Of a stretch of 64,000 nucleotides of DNA, positions 27,247-41,816 are shown piece by piece. The notes under the pieces were generated by a model. It was given only the letters and a program-made list of their open reading frames with translations. It had not been told where the DNA came from and did not search any database. Every line of letters begins with the position of its first letter. The stretch's first letter is position 1. The position numbers were made by a program, and so were the translations under genes. The stretch comes from Desulfomonile tiedjei (GTDB lineage Bacteria; Desulfobacterota; Desulfomonilia; Desulfomonilales; Desulfomonilaceae): positions 372,001 to 436,000 of the forward strand of contig JACRDG010000048.1 in assembly GCA_016218715.1 (NCBI GenBank), written 5' to 3'.

Positions 27247-27532
27247 TAGATCGGTCTCCTGAATGTAATGGTGATTGGAGAGGCGAAGGGGACAACTTCA
27301 TTTTTAACCGAATCAAGAAAAAATTGCAAGGGGTTGACGATCCAAAATTCTCCGAGTCGTGTCGCGTGTTCTTCGAATCGGTCGTGTTGGGGTTTCGGCC
27401 AATGACACGTTGACTCCCGATGCGGGACCCGATATATTTGCAGCTCCAATTCCTGAAAACAGGCTATTCACGAACGGTCGGCGTGACGAACGACGCTGGA
27501 TAGCCGCAAGGATACAGCAGGTTCGCGTGGGA

Positions 27533-28528
27533 ATGGATAGCGATATCAGGAACGACCTCATGGGACCGGTGAGCGAGCCTTGCTTTCTCTCGGTGGTGAT
27601 TCCGGTCTACAATGAAGAAGAGAATGTGGAACCGCTTCACCAAAGCGTCGTGACCGCGCTGAGCGGACTGAACCGATCGTACGAGATCGTGTACGTAGAC
27701 GACGGCAGCACGGATGGAAGTCTGGCAAAGCTGGAAAAAATAGCCGAAGCGAGTCCGTTTGCCACAGTGATCCAGTTGCGGCGCAATTTCGGCCAGACAG
27801 CCGCGATGGCTGCTGGGATCGACCACGCGTGCGGAGAGATCATTGTGTTCCTGGACGCGGATCTGCAGAACGATCCGGCGGACATACCCATGCTCCTCGC
27901 GAAACTCGATGAAGGGTACGACCTGGTCAGCGGGTGGAGAAAGAACCGGCAAGACAACTGGTTTTGGCGTAAGTTACCGTCAACAGTAGCTAATCGAATC
28001 ATATCATTCACCACCGGCGTCCACTTGCACGACTATGGCTGCACCCTGAAAGCATACCGGAGTGAAGTCCTCAAAGGTATTCGCCTGTACGGCGAGATGC
28101 ACCGTTTCATTCCGGCATTTGCCCGGCAGGTTGGAGCGACGGTCACGGAACTCCCGGTGAACCACCGCCCGCGGGTGCACGGACAGTCCAAGTACGGCAT
28201 AGGGAGAACATTTCGGGTTGTTTTGGACTTGGCCACGGTAAAATTTCTCGCGAGTTTCTCCGGAAATCCTATCTACCTGTTCGGCGGCTCGGGATTGGTC
28301 TTCATCGGTTTAAGCCTTATCACGGGCCTTATCATGGTCCTGAACAAGCTCCTGTACGGGATCTACTTCATCCAGTCGCCGCTGCTCTTGCTCTCAGCGC
28401 TCTTATTCATCCTCGGGTTTCAATCCATTCTCTTGGGCCTCACCGCGGAACTCCTGGTTCGCACGTATCACGAATCCCAGGGTAAACTGACCTACGTGAT
28501 ACGCCGGATCTTCAGATCGAAGGAATGA
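27533..28528 (+). CDS. DPM1/ArnC-like family 2 glycosyltransferase
   Basis: 331 residues. The N-terminal GT-A domain has SVVIPVYNEEENV, VDDGSTDGSL and VFLDADLQNDPADI (the DxD metal motif), and HRPRVHGQSKYGIGRT as in dolichyl- and undecaprenyl-phosphate sugar transferases. Two C-terminal membrane helices (about 250-310) anchor it. Such enzymes load a sugar on a polyprenyl phosphate for lipid A, glycan or protein modification. Start is uncertain between ATG 27533 and ATG 27560; the latter has AGGAA at good spacing. asnB begins 9 bp after the stop, so the pair is an operon. Confidence 0.87.
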   Translation: MDSDIRNDLMGPVSEPCFLSVVIPVYNEEENVEPLHQSVVTALSGLNRSYEIVYVDDGSTDGSLAKLEKIAEASPFATVIQLRRNFGQTAAMAAGIDHACGEIIVFLDADLQNDPADIPMLLAKLDEGYDLVSGWRKNRQDNWFWRKLPSTVANRIISFTTGVHLHDYGCTLKAYRSEVLKGIRLYGEMHRFIPAFARQVGATVTELPVNHRPRVHGQSKYGIGRTFRVVLDLATVKFLASFSGNPIYLFGGSGLVFIGLSLITGLIMVLNKLLYGIYFIQSPLLLLSALLFILGFQSILLGLTAELLVRTYHESQGKLTYVIRRIFRSKE

Positions 28529-28537
28529 GGTCCGGAT

Positions 28538-30442
28538 ATGTGCGGCGTTTGCGGCATCGTTAACCGCGACAGTGAGAGGAGCGTCGATCGCGCAATCCTG
28601 CTCGCCATGACGCGATCCATGGCTCACCGAGGCCCCGATGACGAGGGTTTCTATACCCAGGGGCCAGTCGGCCTCGGGCATCGGCGTCTCTCGATCATCG
28701 ATCTCTCCACTGGACGCCAGCCGATACACAACGAGGACGAGACCGTCTGGATCGTATACAACGGAGAGCTGTACAACTCACCGGAACTACGCGTCGAGCT
28801 GGAGAAACGAGGCCACGAGTTTTCCACTCGCAGCGACACCGAGGTGATCGTCCACGCGTACGAAGAGTATGGACCGGATTGCGTGAACGTTTTCAACGGT
28901 ATGTTCGCATTCGCCATCTGGGATACGGCTCGGAAAAGGCTCTTTATTGCGCGGGACCGCGTCGGAATTAAACCGCTCTACTACGCGGAGCTGAAAGACT
29001 GCTTTATCTTCGGTTCAGAGCTGAAAGCGCTGCTCGCTCATCCGTCGGTCGAGCGCAGCATTGATATTACGGCTCTGAATCAGTATTTGGCTTTCGAATA
29101 CGTTCCGACGCCTCGTACCATCTTCGAAGGAATAAACAAACTCCCGCCGGGTCATCTCCTCATATGGGAAAACGGCAGTCTCGAGATCAGGCAGTACTGG
29201 GACCTGCAGCTCGTTCAGTGCGAGAACGGAAACCGAAAGAGCGAAACTGAGTACGTCCTGAATCTCCTGGAAACGCTGAAGGAATCGGTTCGAAAAGAAC
29301 TCATTGCCGACGTGCCGACCGGTGTGCTGCTCAGTGGCGGGATCGATTCCAGCGCGGTGGCCTGCATGATGGCCCAATGCATCCCGGGAAACGTGAAGAG
29401 CTTTTCCATCGCGTTCGAGGACCCGTCCTTCGATGAGTCGAATTACGCTCAACTCGTCAGCCGGCATCTCGGCACCGAGCACCATGAGATCACCCTTACC
29501 GCGGGGATGATGTTGGACCTGGTACCGCAAATCGCCGGATTCCTCGATGAGCCTCTCGGAGATTCTTCGATAATCCCCACGTATTTGCTCTCCAGCTTCA
29601 CCCGGCAGTACGTGAAGGTCGCGCTGGGCGGGGACGGTGGAGACGAGCTTTTTGCCGGATATTCGACGCTTCAGGCACATCGCCTCTCCGACTATTACCA
29701 GCGCTTTCTGCCGAAGCTGATCGCCCGGCGAGTCGTCCCGTGGGTCGTGGACAACTTGCCGGTTTCGTTCAACAATATAAGCTTCGATTTCAAGGCCAGA
29801 CGCTTTCTTGCAGGCCAAGGGTTGCCGCCGGTCCTACGACACCATCTCTGGCTGGGCTCTTTCTCCACACCCGAGCGAAGTCGCCTCCTTGGGCCGCGCG
29901 CTCAAGGGCACGAACGAGACGCGGAGCAGCTTTCGTACGCGCATCTGAACGCGTGCTCCGCTCATGATTACCTGAACCAGATCCTCTATTGCGATATGAA
30001 GCTGTATCTGGAAGGGGATATCCTGCCAAAAGTGGACCGGGCGAGCATGGCGAATTCTCTGGAAGTGCGGGTGCCGCTGCTCAATCAGCTCATGCTCGAA
30101 TACGCGAATCGTCTTCCGCATACCTTTAAATTGAAAGGCCTTACCACGAAATACATCCTGCGCAAGGCTCTCCAGGGATTGCTCCCTCGGCCGATCCTCG
30201 CGCGCGGGAAGAAGGGCTTCAACATGCCGGTGGCCAAATGGTTGACCGGTCCGCTCAAACCGCTTGCGGAGGAGATGTTTTCTGCAGATCGGCTGAAACG
30301 GGAAGGGCTTTTCGATCCGTCGTACGTCAGATTTCTGCTGGACGAGCACCTGGAGCATCGCCGGGACAACCGCAAATTGCTCTGGACCCTGCTCGTCTTC
30401 GAGCTCTGGTACGATAAATGGGCGAAGCATCGGGCAGATTAA
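28538..30442 (+). CDS. asnB: asparagine synthetase B (glutamine-hydrolysing)
   Basis: 634 residues, full length for bacterial AsnB. The N-terminal class II glutaminase starts MCGVCGIV with the catalytic Cys exposed after Met removal. The synthetase domain has the PP-loop VLLSGGIDSSAVA and GGDGGDELFAGY. It makes asparagine from aspartate, glutamine and ATP. Because it is coupled to a polyprenyl-type glycosyltransferase, a role in amidating a surface polymer is possible, as with some AsnB-like enzymes in glycan clusters, but ordinary asparagine synthesis fits equally well. Confidence 0.94.
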   Translation: MCGVCGIVNRDSERSVDRAILLAMTRSMAHRGPDDEGFYTQGPVGLGHRRLSIIDLSTGRQPIHNEDETVWIVYNGELYNSPELRVELEKRGHEFSTRSDTEVIVHAYEEYGPDCVNVFNGMFAFAIWDTARKRLFIARDRVGIKPLYYAELKDCFIFGSELKALLAHPSVERSIDITALNQYLAFEYVPTPRTIFEGINKLPPGHLLIWENGSLEIRQYWDLQLVQCENGNRKSETEYVLNLLETLKESVRKELIADVPTGVLLSGGIDSSAVACMMAQCIPGNVKSFSIAFEDPSFDESNYAQLVSRHLGTEHHEITLTAGMMLDLVPQIAGFLDEPLGDSSIIPTYLLSSFTRQYVKVALGGDGGDELFAGYSTLQAHRLSDYYQRFLPKLIARRVVPWVVDNLPVSFNNISFDFKARRFLAGQGLPPVLRHHLWLGSFSTPERSRLLGPRAQGHERDAEQLSYAHLNACSAHDYLNQILYCDMKLYLEGDILPKVDRASMANSLEVRVPLLNQLMLEYANRLPHTFKLKGLTTKYILRKALQGLLPRPILARGKKGFNMPVAKWLTGPLKPLAEEMFSADRLKREGLFDPSYVRFLLDEHLEHRRDNRKLLWTLLVFELWYDKWAKHRAD

Positions 30443-36001: not shown

Positions 36002-36325
36002 ATGGACTTCAAAGCTATACAGATCTTGTGTATGGCCGTTTCCACCCTGCTGGAAGAGATGAACTGGGGGGTCTACGGCACCCAGGAATTCCACACGCCG
36101 GTGTTGGTTGAGGAAGCGGACTGCCGAAAACTGGACCTGCTCATAGACATGATGGGTACCCTCACGAGAATGATGGACACGCGGCTCAACTTCGTGACGA
36201 CCGAAGGGAAGGTCATCCGAGAATGGATCGAAACGATCCTCGAAGTGGGGGGGAGGTACCTGCGAGAATTGCAGACCCTGGAGAAACTCGAAACAACAGT
36301 AAAAACCAAGTTTTCAGTCGACTGA
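36002..36325 (+). CDS. small protein of unknown function
   Basis: 107 residues, probably helical and cytoplasmic (MDFKAIQILCMAVSTLLEEM at the start, DLLIDMMGTLTRMMDTRLNF in the middle). No motif or family was recognised. An in-frame ATG at 35969 is possible but adds 11 unconvincing residues. It ends 12 bp inside the convergent membrane-protein gene at 36314. Confidence 0.5.
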   Translation: MDFKAIQILCMAVSTLLEEMNWGVYGTQEFHTPVLVEEADCRKLDLLIDMMGTLTRMMDTRLNFVTTEGKVIREWIETILEVGGRYLRELQTLEKLETTVKTKFSVD

Positions 36326-36676
36326 ATCCTCCCCCGAAGATCCCCGCCGTTTTTCCTTGTGGCTCCGGACGCGGGTTCGCATTGCTTCCCGGTCCGACTC
36401 CGCGGGTTCGGGACTTGAATTCCCGTGCTCTGTCGGGGTGTCGCTCTCTGAGGTGCGACTCAACGAGTCTTTCCCGCTCATGGTCGTAAGGACGTAGAAA
36501 AACAACAACCCCCACAACGTGTAGAGAACCCAACCGACGTACCCGGTCAACGACCACCCGGCCTCCGTGGCCCCAAAGAGGAGCAACACCAAACTGCACG
36601 CGACCAGCAGCACGCGCGCGAGCTTGACAAGCCAGGGGGAACCTTTTGGAACAAAAAGCGCAGTCATTGAGGGCAT
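36314..36676 (-). CDS. small two-helix membrane protein
   Basis: 120 residues. Two hydrophobic segments (LARVLLVACSLVLLLFGA and YVGWVLYTLWGLLFFYVL) make a hairpin in the membrane. The last 50 residues are charged and Ser/Glu/Arg-rich (SKEKRRGSSGEDSVD-like). Start may be residue 4 (36667). Unknown function; convergent with the gene at 36002. It lies 123 bp past the kinase-like gene on the same strand and could be co-transcribed. Confidence 0.55.
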   Translation of the reverse strand: MPSMTALFVPKGSPWLVKLARVLLVACSLVLLLFGATEAGWSLTGYVGWVLYTLWGLLFFYVLTTMSGKDSLSRTSESDTPTEHGNSSPEPAESDREAMRTRVRSHKEKRRGSSGEDSVD

Positions 36677-36799: not shown

Positions 36800-38125
36800 T
36801 CAAGGTTGAAGCTTCACCGCAATCTGCTCCAGCTTGAAGAGGACCGACTCCGCGAGAACCCTTCTCGATTGAATCTTCTCCGGGCACCCGTCCAGGAGGC
36901 GCTGGAATCGTTTCTTGGGATCTTTATCGAGCATCGACGAGAGCAGGTCGCGTAGGAGTTCGTTTATCGGCGAAAAGTCGAACTTGGTCAACAGGATCGA
37001 ATTGACCATGTCTCCGAGGTTCTTCGGTTCCCCGAACGGGAACTTGCCGCCGGAGAGAAACTGATACAAGGTGACGCCGAGCGCCCAGATGTCATCCATC
37101 TGGGATCGTTTCATTTTAATGGTACGCACAGCCTCGAGGGGCTTTCCCAGTTGCAGGTACTCCTGATAATCCGTTCGCAGGGTCTGCAGGAGGTAGAGGA
37201 TCGCCTCCGGGGGCATAAACGGCCAGCTTCCTACCGTTCCCAACCCTTTTGGTGCTGGGTCGGCTATATCTACGGAATTGTCGAGATGATCCACCATAAT
37301 GAATTCGGTAGTGAGACATGCACCGCTCGGCGGCCGGTAGTACGTCTTCGGATAGTGGAAGAACGTGTACTTGGGAAGCCGGCTGGCAGGCTGGGCTCCT
37401 TTCTTGATGAATGCCTCGGGCCTGAGGTTGAGGTGCAGCCGGCGCTCCTCCACATGGAGATGGCACAACCCCACGGCACAGTCCACCGCCCAGGAGACCA
37501 AATCCACCAAATCGCCTCCCATGTCCGCGGGGTCGACCTTACCGATAGGATCCACCGCAAGTAGTTCCATCAGCAAGAACAGGTAATCACCGGCCTGGCC
37601 AACCTTGTGGATTTGGACGAGGCGCCTCGCTCGAGCGTACACTCCGGAAGGCTTGCGCCTGAGTACTTGTTTGCCGAGATCGGTCAAGGTGCCCGGATGT
37701 TCCTCCTGTTCCAGGTCGTAGAGCACGCCTGCCAGGCCGAACTTACCGTGCGTCTGCATGAGTTCGTGCAATTGCGCGGCCGAATAAATCTTGAGGGCGT
37801 ATGGCTTCTTCTCCACGGACACGGAATAGACCGGTCCGGTATTGCCGAAGCCGAGGAACTTCTCGGCCTCGCACGAGACCCGCGCGGCCGCGGGGCTTTT
37901 GGCCGCATCCGTGAGATCGAAGAAGCGGATCTCACCGGTCTTGTCTATTTGATCGATGAGACTCCGAAAGAGCTGTTGCGTGAGCACGCGCTCTTTTTTG
38001 GTGATTTCCGCGGCCCCCTGAAACGTGGACGTGAGAGGATCGAGTTTTCGTTGGGTAAAGGCGTCGTAAACCCCCTTCTCTCTGAGTCCTTCAATGAGTT
38101 GCGTAATGCCGATCTTTTGTGTCAT
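36800..38125 (-). CDS. protein-kinase-fold protein lacking the catalytic Asp (pseudokinase)
   Basis: 441 residues. Residues 1-85 are an N-terminal region of unknown fold. The rest follows the Ser/Thr kinase order: glycine loop LGFGNTGPVYSV, the ATP lysine in PYALKIYSA, the catalytic-loop position LHLNLRPEAFI, the DFG position IMVDHLDNS, the APE-like GSWPFMPPEA and DDIWALGVTLYQFLSGG. The HRD aspartate is Asn and DFG reads DHL, so phosphotransfer is unlikely. It may be a scaffold or nucleotide sensor. ATG 38125 has GAGGGGA upstream. Divergent from the usp gene. Family position is clear; inactivity is inference. Confidence 0.8.
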   Translation of the reverse strand: MTQKIGITQLIEGLREKGVYDAFTQRKLDPLTSTFQGAAEITKKERVLTQQLFRSLIDQIDKTGEIRFFDLTDAAKSPAAARVSCEAEKFLGFGNTGPVYSVSVEKKPYALKIYSAAQLHELMQTHGKFGLAGVLYDLEQEEHPGTLTDLGKQVLRRKPSGVYARARRLVQIHKVGQAGDYLFLLMELLAVDPIGKVDPADMGGDLVDLVSWAVDCAVGLCHLHVEERRLHLNLRPEAFIKKGAQPASRLPKYTFFHYPKTYYRPPSGACLTTEFIMVDHLDNSVDIADPAPKGLGTVGSWPFMPPEAILYLLQTLRTDYQEYLQLGKPLEAVRTIKMKRSQMDDIWALGVTLYQFLSGGKFPFGEPKNLGDMVNSILLTKFDFSPINELLRDLLSSMLDKDPKKRFQRLLDGCPEKIQSRRVLAESVLFKLEQIAVKLQP

Positions 38126-38305
38126 GAACGTCCCCTCGCGTGGGTATCCTCCAACAGGCGAACGGACCAGCGGGCGAGAATCACCGAGATATGCCGTAAG
38201 GGAGTTTAACAAGCACCGGCAACCGCGTCAACAGATTTGCCCCTGATCCAAGGGCTCAGTAGTGACCGGCTCCCGCGGACCGGGAGTGGTACCTCTCTTC
38301 ACGCA

Positions 38306-38432: not shown

Positions 38433-38888
38433 ATGATCCCAAAGAAAATCCTTCTTTGTACGGACTTTTCCGAAAACTCTGTTCCGGCCCGCATTTGCGC
38501 GGTCGAGTACGCGAAAACCTTTGGCGCGAAGCTGATCATATTCCACGTCGTCAACTCGCGCCTGATCGGGTATCCGGAGTTTGAGGCGAAGATTCCGGTC
38601 GATATGGCGATGCTGATGCAGAACATTGAAGAAGGAGTGCGGGAAGAACTCGATTTGTTGAGCAACGACAGCCGCCTCGACCTCGAGGACGTGGAGGCAG
38701 AATACCGCACCGGCGCGCCTGCCGACGAGATCGTCAAGTTCGCGGAAGAGGCCTCCGTGGATCTCATAATAATGGGTACCCACGGCTGGAGCGGGCTCAA
38801 GCACCTCATTCTGGGGAGCACCGCGGAGAACGTGGTCCGCACGGCACACTGTCCCGTGATGACGGTGAGGGCAGCCGGAGCATCATGA
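38433..38888 (+). CDS. universal stress protein (UspA family)
   Basis: 151 residues. The ATP-binding Usp motif is intact: IIMGTHGWSGLKHLILGSTAENVV (split here as GTHGWSGLKHLILGS) and CPVMTVR at the end; the N-terminal KILLCTDFSENS is the typical first strand and loop. Usp proteins bind ATP and help survival under stress. AAAGGAG precedes the ATG. Its 3' end overlaps that of the convergent GAF-like gene by 6 bp. It lies between the pseudokinase and the GAF-like gene, hinting at a sensory group. Confidence 0.92.
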   Translation: MIPKKILLCTDFSENSVPARICAVEYAKTFGAKLIIFHVVNSRLIGYPEFEAKIPVDMAMLMQNIEEGVREELDLLSNDSRLDLEDVEAEYRTGAPADEIVKFAEEASVDLIIMGTHGWSGLKHLILGSTAENVVRTAHCPVMTVRAAGAS

Positions 38889-41234
38889 GACCGAGAGGCT
38901 GTTACCTGCCCTCTTCGCGAGGAGTGGCGACTCCACGTTGACGCCGACCCGAAGCGCCCTGAGACCCTGAACGCCCGGTAGATCGTCCAGGTCAAGCTGT
39001 TCCAGATCATCCCGGAGAATCTGTCTGTTCTGGAGAAAGCCGATGTGCCCGAGCATTTCCTGAGATTCATCGGACCGGGAATAGACGATAGCGATCTTTT
39101 CAGGCTGGGTGAGTCGTTCGTTTCGGCCGCGGACCGTCGCCTTGTCGATCCGGGAGCGAATGATCTCATGCGCCACATCATAGGCCCCGTCCACGTCGAA
39201 TCGTTTCTCGTCGAACCTGAACCGGACCGCCAGCGGACTGCGGTGGGCCAGAATCAGATGAGTGGCGGTCAGCGGAACTTTGAGGACGCCCTTAAGCTGA
39301 TCCGCATGCCATGCGATGCCGCATGCCAATATAATCTGCCAGAGCCGCAAACTCTTTACCAACAGATCGCTGAACTTCCCGTTCTCTACAAGGGATGCGC
39401 CTGCGTAGATCACGTACTCGATCCCGTCGGTCTGGTGTTTTTCGAAATAGTGGGGAAACGCCGCCTGCGCGCGAGCTTCTTCCGCATCGAGGTATGAGGA
39501 GATCTGCTGGTTGAAGAGTGACACGCTCTCCTCGAAATCCTTTCGCTTCCGATACACGGAGCCGAGGTTGCCTTCCATGGCCTTCTCGTATGCGTCGATG
39601 GCTTCGTTCACCGACGGCCCGAAATCCCGCAGCGGAAAAAAGAGCGGTTCCAAGTCGGTGCGCATGAACTGGATCACCGACTCTTCCGCGCCGGAACTCA
39701 GTCCGTTTCGGATCTGATCGAGGTACAACTCCATCCGATAGCCAAGCTCTTCGAGGAGCGGTAGGTCCTTGGCCTTCCATGCCGATCGCACCACATCGAG
39801 CGCGAGGCTCAAATGTTCGGTCAGATCGTCACCTATGGAACGATTCCGTCCTTCGGAAGATCCCCGAATGTCGGAGGCCGCGTACAAGGGGTACACTTCC
39901 CGGAAGACTATCGGCTCCAGTTCGGACGATTCTCCGTTGTGGACTCGTTCCAAATGATCGAGGACCGCTTTTCGGAACCGCCACTCCACTGAAGGATGAA
40001 TAGCCGTGCACTTCTCCTTGATAATGCCGTCGATCTGGCTGTCCAGCTCCTGGAGTGCCCGTCTCAGTGCCACGGAAAAAATGGGCACGATCTGGTTCGC
40101 CAGCAGAGCCTCTGCCGGCCCTAGTTCTCCCGGCAGGGGTGCCCCGAGTTTCAGGGTCCCGATGTGCTGGCCCTGATCGTAGAGCGGCGCAACCAGTACC
40201 GACCTGATCCCGGCCTCCAGCATCTCTTCTTCAATCCGGGTCCGTGGAGACCGCTCCAAGAGATCCCGGATCACCAGGACCTTTTTCTCGTTCACCGCCT
40301 CTTCGAAGACAGAACCGATGAATTCCGCGATGGGAACGTGACGGGATGCGGCGAAGATACAATTCTGCCGCATTTCGCACCCCCTGTTCAGCAAGAGGAC
40401 TTGATCGCCCTGCACCGCTGCCAGGCTCGCCACCATTTCAGGAAGTCGGAAGAGCGTCCGCAGGTTTTGCTGCAGTTTTTCAAAGCCCACGTCAGACACG
40501 ATCGACCCTTTTTCCGTGATGCTCCTCTCCAGTTCCGCCCGGATTTCGGATTCGGTTACATCCACCGCGTGCACCGTGGTGAATCCCTGCAGCTCGAACT
40601 CCTCGGGCGGAAGAATGGACCGAAGCACCTCCGGTTCGGTAATGTGCTCCAGCATCTCTGACAGGTCACGCTGCGAGAGTTTTCGCGGTTTCTTCCGGGC
40701 CTTGGCCCACACATACCGGACATGGGAGTTGATGCTGTAACGACGTTCGAGCCCCGTCCTGGGATCGGGTACACTGCGAATTACCGGGTAATCCAAGTCC
40801 TTTTCCACCCCGTACAAATCCTTAAGGATAGCAAGGTAGGCCCTGACAATTATCCGGGAACGTGCTTGTTTCTGGTGCTGGAGCCTGCCGCGGAGAGTCC
40901 CGTCAGCGTTAAGAAATCTCTCTCGGAATGGCGGGGAGACGTACACCGGTTGCAGGGATATCGGTATAAGCGCTCCCATCGGCTGCGTCTCCCAGGACCC
41001 CGGTGGAAAGACTGCGCTCATGAGGGTCTTAACCAGATCCCAGTGGTCGTCCAGAATGGAAAGGTCTTCGATCGGCCCCGTGAGTTCAGGCACTTTGGCG
41101 AGCCGCTCCTGAACCGAACGCAGCATCCGCGCCCACTCCTCGCTCCATGACGCCACCGACCGTTCCCAGAATTCGACCAAAGGACCGAAACTGAACACAC
41201 AGCGGAAAGGATACTCACTCAGGATCTCTTGCAT
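38883..41234 (-). CDS. large GAF-like multidomain protein of unknown function
   Basis: 783 residues, mostly helical. Around residues 290-430 lies a GAF-like sensory domain (VLVIRDLLERSPRTRIEEE, AGIRSVLVAPLYDQGQHIGT, LKLGAPLPGEL). The N-terminal 200 residues contain PVYVSPPFRERFLNADGTLR. The C-terminal 300 residues have AHRSPLAVRFRFDEKRFDVD and end near LLAKRAGNSL. No kinase, GGDEF, HD or HTH domain was recognised, so output is unknown. GGAGG lies 8 nt before ATG 41234. Convergent with usp. It may bind a small ligand through the GAF domain. Confidence 0.65.
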   Translation of the reverse strand: MQEILSEYPFRCVFSFGPLVEFWERSVASWSEEWARMLRSVQERLAKVPELTGPIEDLSILDDHWDLVKTLMSAVFPPGSWETQPMGALIPISLQPVYVSPPFRERFLNADGTLRGRLQHQKQARSRIIVRAYLAILKDLYGVEKDLDYPVIRSVPDPRTGLERRYSINSHVRYVWAKARKKPRKLSQRDLSEMLEHITEPEVLRSILPPEEFELQGFTTVHAVDVTESEIRAELERSITEKGSIVSDVGFEKLQQNLRTLFRLPEMVASLAAVQGDQVLLLNRGCEMRQNCIFAASRHVPIAEFIGSVFEEAVNEKKVLVIRDLLERSPRTRIEEEMLEAGIRSVLVAPLYDQGQHIGTLKLGAPLPGELGPAEALLANQIVPIFSVALRRALQELDSQIDGIIKEKCTAIHPSVEWRFRKAVLDHLERVHNGESSELEPIVFREVYPLYAASDIRGSSEGRNRSIGDDLTEHLSLALDVVRSAWKAKDLPLLEELGYRMELYLDQIRNGLSSGAEESVIQFMRTDLEPLFFPLRDFGPSVNEAIDAYEKAMEGNLGSVYRKRKDFEESVSLFNQQISSYLDAEEARAQAAFPHYFEKHQTDGIEYVIYAGASLVENGKFSDLLVKSLRLWQIILACGIAWHADQLKGVLKVPLTATHLILAHRSPLAVRFRFDEKRFDVDGAYDVAHEIIRSRIDKATVRGRNERLTQPEKIAIVYSRSDESQEMLGHIGFLQNRQILRDDLEQLDLDDLPGVQGLRALRVGVNVESPLLAKRAGNSLSVS

Positions 41235-41816
41235 GACAGAATCCTCCGTTGGTTGTCTTTTAATTATGCCTTGCAGGTAAAGGAAAAGTCCAGAAGAGGT
41301 TCGACTGCAACTTCGTTTCGAGCGCGTCAAAAGCTGGAGGGCTCTTTACACCCTGTAAAGAATGCTGACAGATGCCCGCACATCCGATGCCTTTGTCCTG
41401 AGGTCCCGAGGGAGACGGGCGTCCCGCCTGTCATTTCCTCATGGGCCGGCAAGATGCCGGCCCCACTGGACAGCCAAGGGCAAAGACCCCGAGGGAGACA
41501 CCGCATTTGCGAAAAGGTGCACTAAGCCTTGTCGGTTACCCGACATTTCTCTTGGCAATTACTCCCGGAGATGGGCTGCGATTCCCGTGGACCCTGGCAC
41601 ATCCGTTGCAAAGGAAAAATTGTGTTTACTTCGCGGGGCGAAGCCGTATGATCCGGAAGATGTGCATAGTATGGCCCGGATCAGTCCCAGGCGAGACAGG
41701 GGATGCCCCGCAGAGCCCTGCAACATTCGGGGCCGGGGAGCCTTGTTGACGGCAAGGGCTTTAAAGAATGAGCGCTCCGGGACGAGAGCAGCCCGGGTTT
41801 ATAGGGAGGACGCAAA
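41235..41816. other. 582-bp intergenic region with a dispersed repeat
   Basis: No supportable gene. Open frames crossing it run through a palindromic repeat (41410-41472). TATAGGGAGGACGC at the end is the ribosome binding site of the CBS-ACT gene. Confidence 0.45.
41410..41472. repeat. GGCATCTTGCC-type repeat, reverse orientation
   Basis: Read on the minus strand it runs TGGGGCCGGCATCTTGCCGG, CCCATGAGGAAATGACAGG, CGGGACGCCCGTC. The same order (GGCATCTTGCC, GGAAATGACAGGCGGGACGC) appears on the + strand at 58441-58500. Each copy holds two small palindromes. Confidence 0.6.

Follow-up and report, generated by a model that had tools for sequence, protein, structure and literature searches.

The locus and its product

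The window analysed here is a stretch of 64,000 nucleotides from a Desulfomonile tiedjei genome (G000; 5.55 Mb in 124 contigs), corresponding to positions 372001-436000 of contig C4. On its minus strand lies a gene for a predicted pseudokinase of 441 amino acids, with the ATG at 38125, the stop codon at 36800-36802 and an intact frame between them, so that the interval 36800-38125 given by the first-pass annotation was exact. The sequence GAGGGG precedes the ATG; the alternative longer start would be a TTG at 38212, and the alignment with the orthologues begins near the ATG. The features that the argument depends on are the following.

36800..38125, minus strand: predicted pseudokinase gene, stop codon included; 441 aa, orthologues in three other genera
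37874..38125, minus strand: N-terminal region, residues 1-84; modelled as four helices followed by a strand, and matched clearly by the orthologues only
37835..37852, minus strand: glycine-rich loop G92-F-G94-N-T-G97; the three Gly identical in all four family members
37790..37792, minus strand: beta3 lysine K112 (in ALK); identical in all four, aligned with the beta3 Lys of 17 kinases of the same genome
37406..37459, minus strand: degraded catalytic loop LHVEERRLHLNLRPEAFI, residues 223-240; HRD to HLN, Lys to R235, Mg-binding Asn to A238
37355..37366, minus strand: TFFH, residues 254-257, invariant; the DFG place according to MAFFT and hhalign, a register that is barely informative
37280..37309, minus strand: TEFIMVDHLD, residues 273-282, with D279, H280 and D282 invariant; the DFG place according to the first-pass annotation and the model
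37205..37240, minus strand: P+1 loop and APE-like motif GTVGSWPFMPPE, residues 296-307, from alignments and hhalign
37112..37204, minus strand: family-specific insert 308-338, from PPE to the alpha-F helix; poorly conserved, mostly gap in the kinase rows
37076..37093, minus strand: alpha-F motif D345-IWAL-G350 (in DDIWALG), from the Pfam match and alignments

No family other than Pkinase scored above its Pfam cut-off in the 441 residues. The kinase domain runs from residue 85 to the end, and a transmembrane segment is apparently absent, as judged by eye. An N-terminal domain of 85 residues had been proposed from the sequence, and a region of about 84 residues is indeed present. In the guided model described below it is built as helices at 7-16, 22-32, 39-52 and 54-63 followed by a strand at 65-70, with block confidences from 59 to 94, and 17 of its 84 positions are invariant among the four orthologues. 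Its only Pfam match was DUF655 (E 0.038, under that family's cut-off), and residues 1-86 searched alone against 18 genomes returned the four family members and one marginal match, also at E 0.038.

The neighbouring genes are a divergent Usp gene upstream (38433-38888), a gene for a GAF protein beyond it (38883-41261) and a small ORF downstream (36314-36676). The GAF protein, encoded on the minus strand, has 792 residues, weak TPR matches and a weak match to LmuA of PADLOC (E 4e-4). The neighbourhoods of the four family members were compared by blastp of ORFs of at least 80 aa (window 26001-50000 and orthologue stretches of 19.5, 12.9 and 5.4 kb); no family except the pseudokinase, together with antisense frames, was common to all four, and hence no partner gene was found in these stretches. 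Both G000 and G006 carry a glycosyltransferase-like and then an asparagine-synthetase-like gene 6-7 kb from the pseudokinase gene (window 27338-30439; L015 17058-19499); the arrangement differs, and the identities between the two genomes are 26% and 48%, respectively. Near the orthologue in G001, a CHASE2-type adenylate cyclase look-alike and a canonical kinase were recognised by eye (L016 1511-3610 and 5958-7388), the kinase having an apparent N-terminal cyclic-nucleotide-binding domain, also by eye.

Homology to protein kinases

The kinase fold claimed in the first-pass annotation was borne out by Pfam Pkinase, by hhalign and by a guided structural model. The Pfam match, at 34.2 bits (cut-off 31.7; E 2.3e-8), is confined to the C-lobe (residues 341-407); all four family members match Pkinase at E <= 0.1. 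A six-frame search of the genome gave 25.5 bits at the same place, under the cut-off, which makes the protein the second weakest among 21 kinase-like matches of its own genome. Comparison of the four-member family with 18 kinase domains of that genome by hhalign gave a probability of 99.5 and an E-value of 2.6e-22 over residues 87-410; judged from these profiles, the kinase homology is beyond chance and covers both lobes. Identity to the 17 aligned kinases of the same genome is 17-24%, and a phmmer search of solved structures matched kinase C-lobes, that of CaMKK2 among them, with a best E of 1.8e-5. The canonical Ser/Thr kinases of the genome, such as that at locus L003, have the kinase domain in common with the pseudokinase, but 16 of 18 retain HxD where it has HLN; both HxD and the beta3 Lys are present in 16 of the 18 aligned domains (18 of the 21 matches could be compared in the alignment).

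An AlphaFold model from a 21-row alignment (four family members and 17 kinases of the same genome) reached a pLDDT of 76.8 and a pTM of 0.80, and one from the four family rows alone a pLDDT of 40.5. The guided model has a predicted two-lobed kinase fold. With VIA-align its best PDB chain scored Z 20.3 (rmsd 2.9, 257 residues aligned), a match that is partly built in, since 17 of the 21 alignment rows are kinases and the fold is guided by them; for the 50 PDB kinase matches listed for this guided model, Z is about 20 and about 250-260 residues are aligned. Among its Foldseek matches is CASK, a metal-independent relative of the kinases.

Retained and substituted motifs

The glycine loop and the ATP lysine, which the first-pass annotation described as intact, and the DxW-G region that it recognised in DDIWALG are retained throughout the family. 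By alignment and by codons, G92, G94, G97, K112, H231, L232, N233, R235, E237, A238, E307, D345, G350 and R406 are invariant in all four members. Against HRDLKPEN the family reads H-L-N-x-R-x-E-A, that is, the catalytic Asp has become Asn (N233, codon 37427-37429, in the context LHLNLRPEAF), the loop Lys has become Arg and the Mg-binding Asn has become Ala. The replacement of HRDLKPE by LHLNLRPE, with loss of the catalytic Asp, had been seen in the single sequence, and the question had been raised of whether the Asn is fixed among relatives. Alignment with kinases and relatives shows Asn in all four family members, and a search among relatives and genome contigs for close homologues with HRD, which had been named as evidence that would speak against a pseudokinase, found none. 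By the sequence definition, loss of at least one of the beta3 Lys, the HRD Asp and the DFG Asp, the protein is therefore a pseudokinase, its HRD Asp being Asn in four of four.

Two further departures add to the earlier description, namely the loss of the Mg-binding Asn (A238) and the lack of a conserved alpha-C Glu. No conserved Glu was found between beta3 and beta4 in the four orthologues; the sole all-acidic column within 116-168 is 137 (D/E/D/D), which could substitute for it. The APE-like stretch has the form GTxGSW..PPE, with E307 closing MPPE, and the insert that follows is invariant at 3 of 30 positions over 309-338.

The position of the DFG motif

Three segments are candidate equivalents of DFG: TFFH (254-257), VDHL (278-281) and ADPA (288-291). 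The first-pass annotation had taken DHL to stand in place of DFG, and MAFFT and hhalign pick TFFH instead. The initial reading of TFFH as the certain DFG equivalent was weakened by masking tests, in which the hhalign score fell from 156.72 to 155.76 with 250-261 masked, to 156.03 with 272-284 masked and to 156.30 with 284-292 masked. Because masking lowers the score by less than 1 of 157, the profile's choice of TFFH carries almost no weight. A point that counts against DHL is that the aligner, when TFFH was masked, still placed DFG there and made no shift to DHL. The guided model, on the other hand, has strand 7 at residues 239-242 and strand 8 at residues 274-277, immediately ahead of VDHL, although the kinase rows of the alignment had placed DFG at TFFH; model confidence is below 50 at residues 246-280. 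From D279 to the Glu of PPE there are 28 residues, a spacing near that between the DFG Asp and this Glu in ordinary kinases. DPA (289-291) was weighed for its spelling VDIADPA; D289 is invariant, its neighbours are variable and a strand of two residues (285-286) precedes it.

As a matter of judgement we lean towards DHL as the DFG place, a proposal that is weakly supported, and we consider TFFH less likely to be it. The distinction matters for the chemistry, since the metal-binding Asp (D279) would be retained if DHL is the DFG place and lost if TFFH is. Whichever register is right, the DFG part of the aligned sequences carries an insertion peculiar to the family, very roughly 25-30 residues long.

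Distribution and selection

The three orthologues are 52-58% identical and all come from the same GTDB family as G000. A profile search of 18 genomes of this family gave five matches at E <= 0.01, four of which are the orthologues including the protein described here and the fifth a short C-lobe match (E 0.007). With the single protein as query, six of 60 relatives matched at E <= 1e-3, four being the family (own genome included, the other three at 53-58% identity) and two being kinase-like proteins of other kinds, matched over a short part of the C-lobe. Among 395 genomes drawn from the phylum, two matched at 1e-8, namely G000 and G006; neither of the remaining genomes with an orthologue was among the matches of this draw. 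A pattern-based scan of genome contigs confirmed three loci from 70 pattern matches, a count that distant members would escape since the scan relies on short conserved peptides. A first contig scan with the single protein confirmed none of 20 pattern matches, the scan of viral contigs none of 140, and the plasmids searched gave no match to the pseudokinase. As far as these searches reach, the distribution is narrow and patchy (4 of the 18 family genomes). Genus g6 includes both G005 and G012, of which one, near-complete (99%, in 2 contigs), gave no match and the other has the pseudokinase, a pattern that points to recent loss or gain within the genus.

Codon positions differ between the orthologues far more at the third position (56-64% of codons) than at the second (22-30%), which shows purifying selection, and in all four genera the reading frame stays open for about 440 codons. 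Of 13 defined segments the catalytic loop is the best conserved, with 14 of its 17 positions invariant where the whole protein has 34%, so that constraint acts on the pseudo-active site itself. Within it LHVEERRLHLN (223-233) forms an invariant run of 11 residues, a length reached by 32 of 20000 shuffles of the invariant positions; the shuffle disregards clustering of conservation and is a guide only. As a control we used an orthologous canonical kinase that all four genomes encode (71-78% identical to its query, with HRD and DFG in four of four). Its longest run, 14 residues, was reached by 374 of 20000 shuffles and lies outside the catalytic loop, and its corresponding loop is invariant at 13 of 17 positions. 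This comparison indicates that the pseudokinase changes faster overall while its altered loop (14 of 17) is held about as tightly as that of the control.

Comparison with known pseudokinases

By analogy of motifs and presumed function, HER3 and the JAK JH2 domains are the closest functional analogues of the protein. HER3 carries the same Asp-to-Asn change, has no Glu in alpha-C and is a binder of ATP (about 1 uM), and JAK JH2 domains likewise have Asn for the HRD Asp, according to the account in PMC4718504. The likeness to HER3 is at the level of motifs and functional analogy; both have Asn for the HRD Asp with the beta3 Lys kept, and the alpha-C Glu that is lacking in HER3 is not conserved here. 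HER3 differs in keeping the Mg-binding Asn and the DFG Asp and in being part of a receptor, whereas the present protein has Ala at the former position, a different N-terminal region and a bacterial host. JAK2 JH2 similarly combines the Asn with a retained Lys, and its Lys to alpha-C Glu bond is described as missing; it keeps the Mg-binding Asn (PMC4718504), in contrast to A238 in all four family members. The pseudokinase described here is a stand-alone candidate with no second Pfam family above cut-off. JAK2 JH2 adjoins an active kinase within one chain.

Seven bacterial pseudokinase families, defined by sequence, and 42 bacterial Ser/Thr kinase families were named in a 2025 review (PMC12599244). 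Judged by sequence motifs against the descriptions given there, our protein fits none of the seven. ActPs2 shares with it the change of the HRD Asp to Asn and additional residues that lie after beta3, ahead of the helix before beta4. In the review's description, however, the beta3 Lys of ActPs2 is mostly Arg (K112 in four of four here), DFG is mostly deleted, about 250 residues are inserted in the activation loop, the C-terminus often carries a membrane segment and the hosts are mainly actinobacteria (PMC12599244). CP1 has a mixed motif loss in which the pattern seen here could occur, no membrane segment and proteobacteria among its hosts; all CP1 proteins are, however, said to be linked to a COG3899 domain (PMC12599244), whereas no second Pfam family scores above its cut-off in these 441 residues. 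DLHK and DYD have lost the beta3 Lys, whereas here K112 is kept and the HRD Asp lost, and ActPs1, ActPs3 and GLW are given as diverged in all three motifs (PMC12599244).

MAD6 of the MADS defence system was considered as an identity and rejected, the NCBIfam MAD6 score being 20.2 bits against a cut-off of 460. The PADLOC mad6 model did match (54.4 bits in two stretches, the best at 339-406), and this match was also rejected, as the model reacts to kinases in general: at E <= 1e-30 PDLC04138 finds matches in 187 of 297 genomes, ordinary kinases of G000 score 230-242 bits and kinase-domain matches in other genomes 222-289 bits among the matches listed, where two full-length matches reach 380-389 bits. 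Calls of mad6 from PDLC04138 alone would thus be over-counted.

Possible function

Tentatively, we infer a stand-alone pseudokinase that would be inactive, would bind nucleotide and would act through contact with another protein. The loss of the catalytic base (Asp to Asn) and of one Mg ligand (Asn to Ala) would make normal phosphotransfer unlikely, and a pocket with the glycine loop, the beta3 Lys and the basic R235 would probably still bind nucleotide, perhaps with one metal ion or none. Nucleotide binding would then determine the conformation that the kinase domain and the N-terminal helical region adopt to make contacts, the contacted protein most likely being a canonical Ser/Thr kinase of the cell or a substrate of one. 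Possible client kinases exist, given the 16 kinase domains of G000 that have HxD and the beta3 Lys. Counting against this proposal are the Ala at the position of the Mg-binding Asn that holds the cation in HER3 and JAK2 JH2, the result that no neighbouring gene is common to all four orthologues in the stretches compared, the patchiness of the gene, which argues against a role in an essential pathway, and the size of the family, which is four sequences only.

The same losses in all four members, of the catalytic Asp and the Mg-binding Asn, with an alpha-C Glu that is not conserved, would also suit a pure scaffold, in which the kinase fold is a docking platform that binds no nucleotide, as in EssB/YukC or the pseudokinase domain of MviN, and the review describes EssB and MviN as functioning without catalysis (PMC12599244). 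We consider this rather unlikely, in view of the invariant glycine loop, beta3 Lys and basic residue of the catalytic loop and of the pseudo-active loop being the most conserved segment, whereas the pockets of EssB and MviN are described as degraded or filled (PMC12599244).

A weakly active or unconventional kinase, in which the Asn still permits transfer at a low rate, would fit the retention of the Lys and the glycine loop and, if DHL is the DFG place, of D279 as a metal ligand; HER3 is described as autophosphorylating in vitro at high local concentration (PMC4718504). Such activity is improbable, as the four members have lost the catalytic Asp together with the Mg-binding Asn and share no conserved alpha-C Glu. 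Marginally less probable still is the reuse of the kinase fold for another ATP-dependent transfer, in which the intact glycine loop and the Lys would hold ATP and the active site would be rebuilt around HLN, TFFH and VDHxD. H231 and N233, TFFH, and D279, H280 and D282, which include extra His and Asp residues, are invariant in all four, and SelO (AMPylation) and SidJ (glutamylation) are precedents (PMC12599244); the argument is one from invariant residues, and the model, with confidence below 50 at 246-280, gives little guide to the geometry of these motifs. A decaying gene or a sequencing error, for which the patchy distribution could be cited, is very improbable given the same substitutions in four separate assemblies, the intact frames and the strong codon-position bias, and the 52-58% identity excludes a single contaminating source.

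The proposal of a nucleotide-binding pseudokinase that acts by contact has the merit that a single gene could be taken directly to a test of nucleotide binding without catalysis. Bacterial pseudokinases are hardly studied, and our literature search found no paper pairing Desulfomonile with a pseudokinase. The family described here is a real, conserved and small one and a modest addition to a known class. Its motif pattern is its own: the Lys and the glycine loop are retained, HRD has become HLN and Ala replaces the Mg-binding Asn. With it, the HRD Asp to Asn change of HER3 and JAK JH2 is seen fixed in one further lineage.

Other kinase-like proteins of the same genome also depart from the canonical motifs. 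L034 (C34:47719-48510, plus strand; a 464-aa frame) has HIF for HRD and DCG at the DFG place with the Lys kept, and is a probable second pseudokinase of G000, judged by these motifs. L035 (C29:93755-94513, minus strand) is a kinase-like region in a frame of 1098 aa, with Arg for the beta3 Lys, HFN for HRD and, at the DFG place, GLG; it too has Asn at the position of the catalytic Asp, yet is a different protein from the pseudokinase at 36800-38125.
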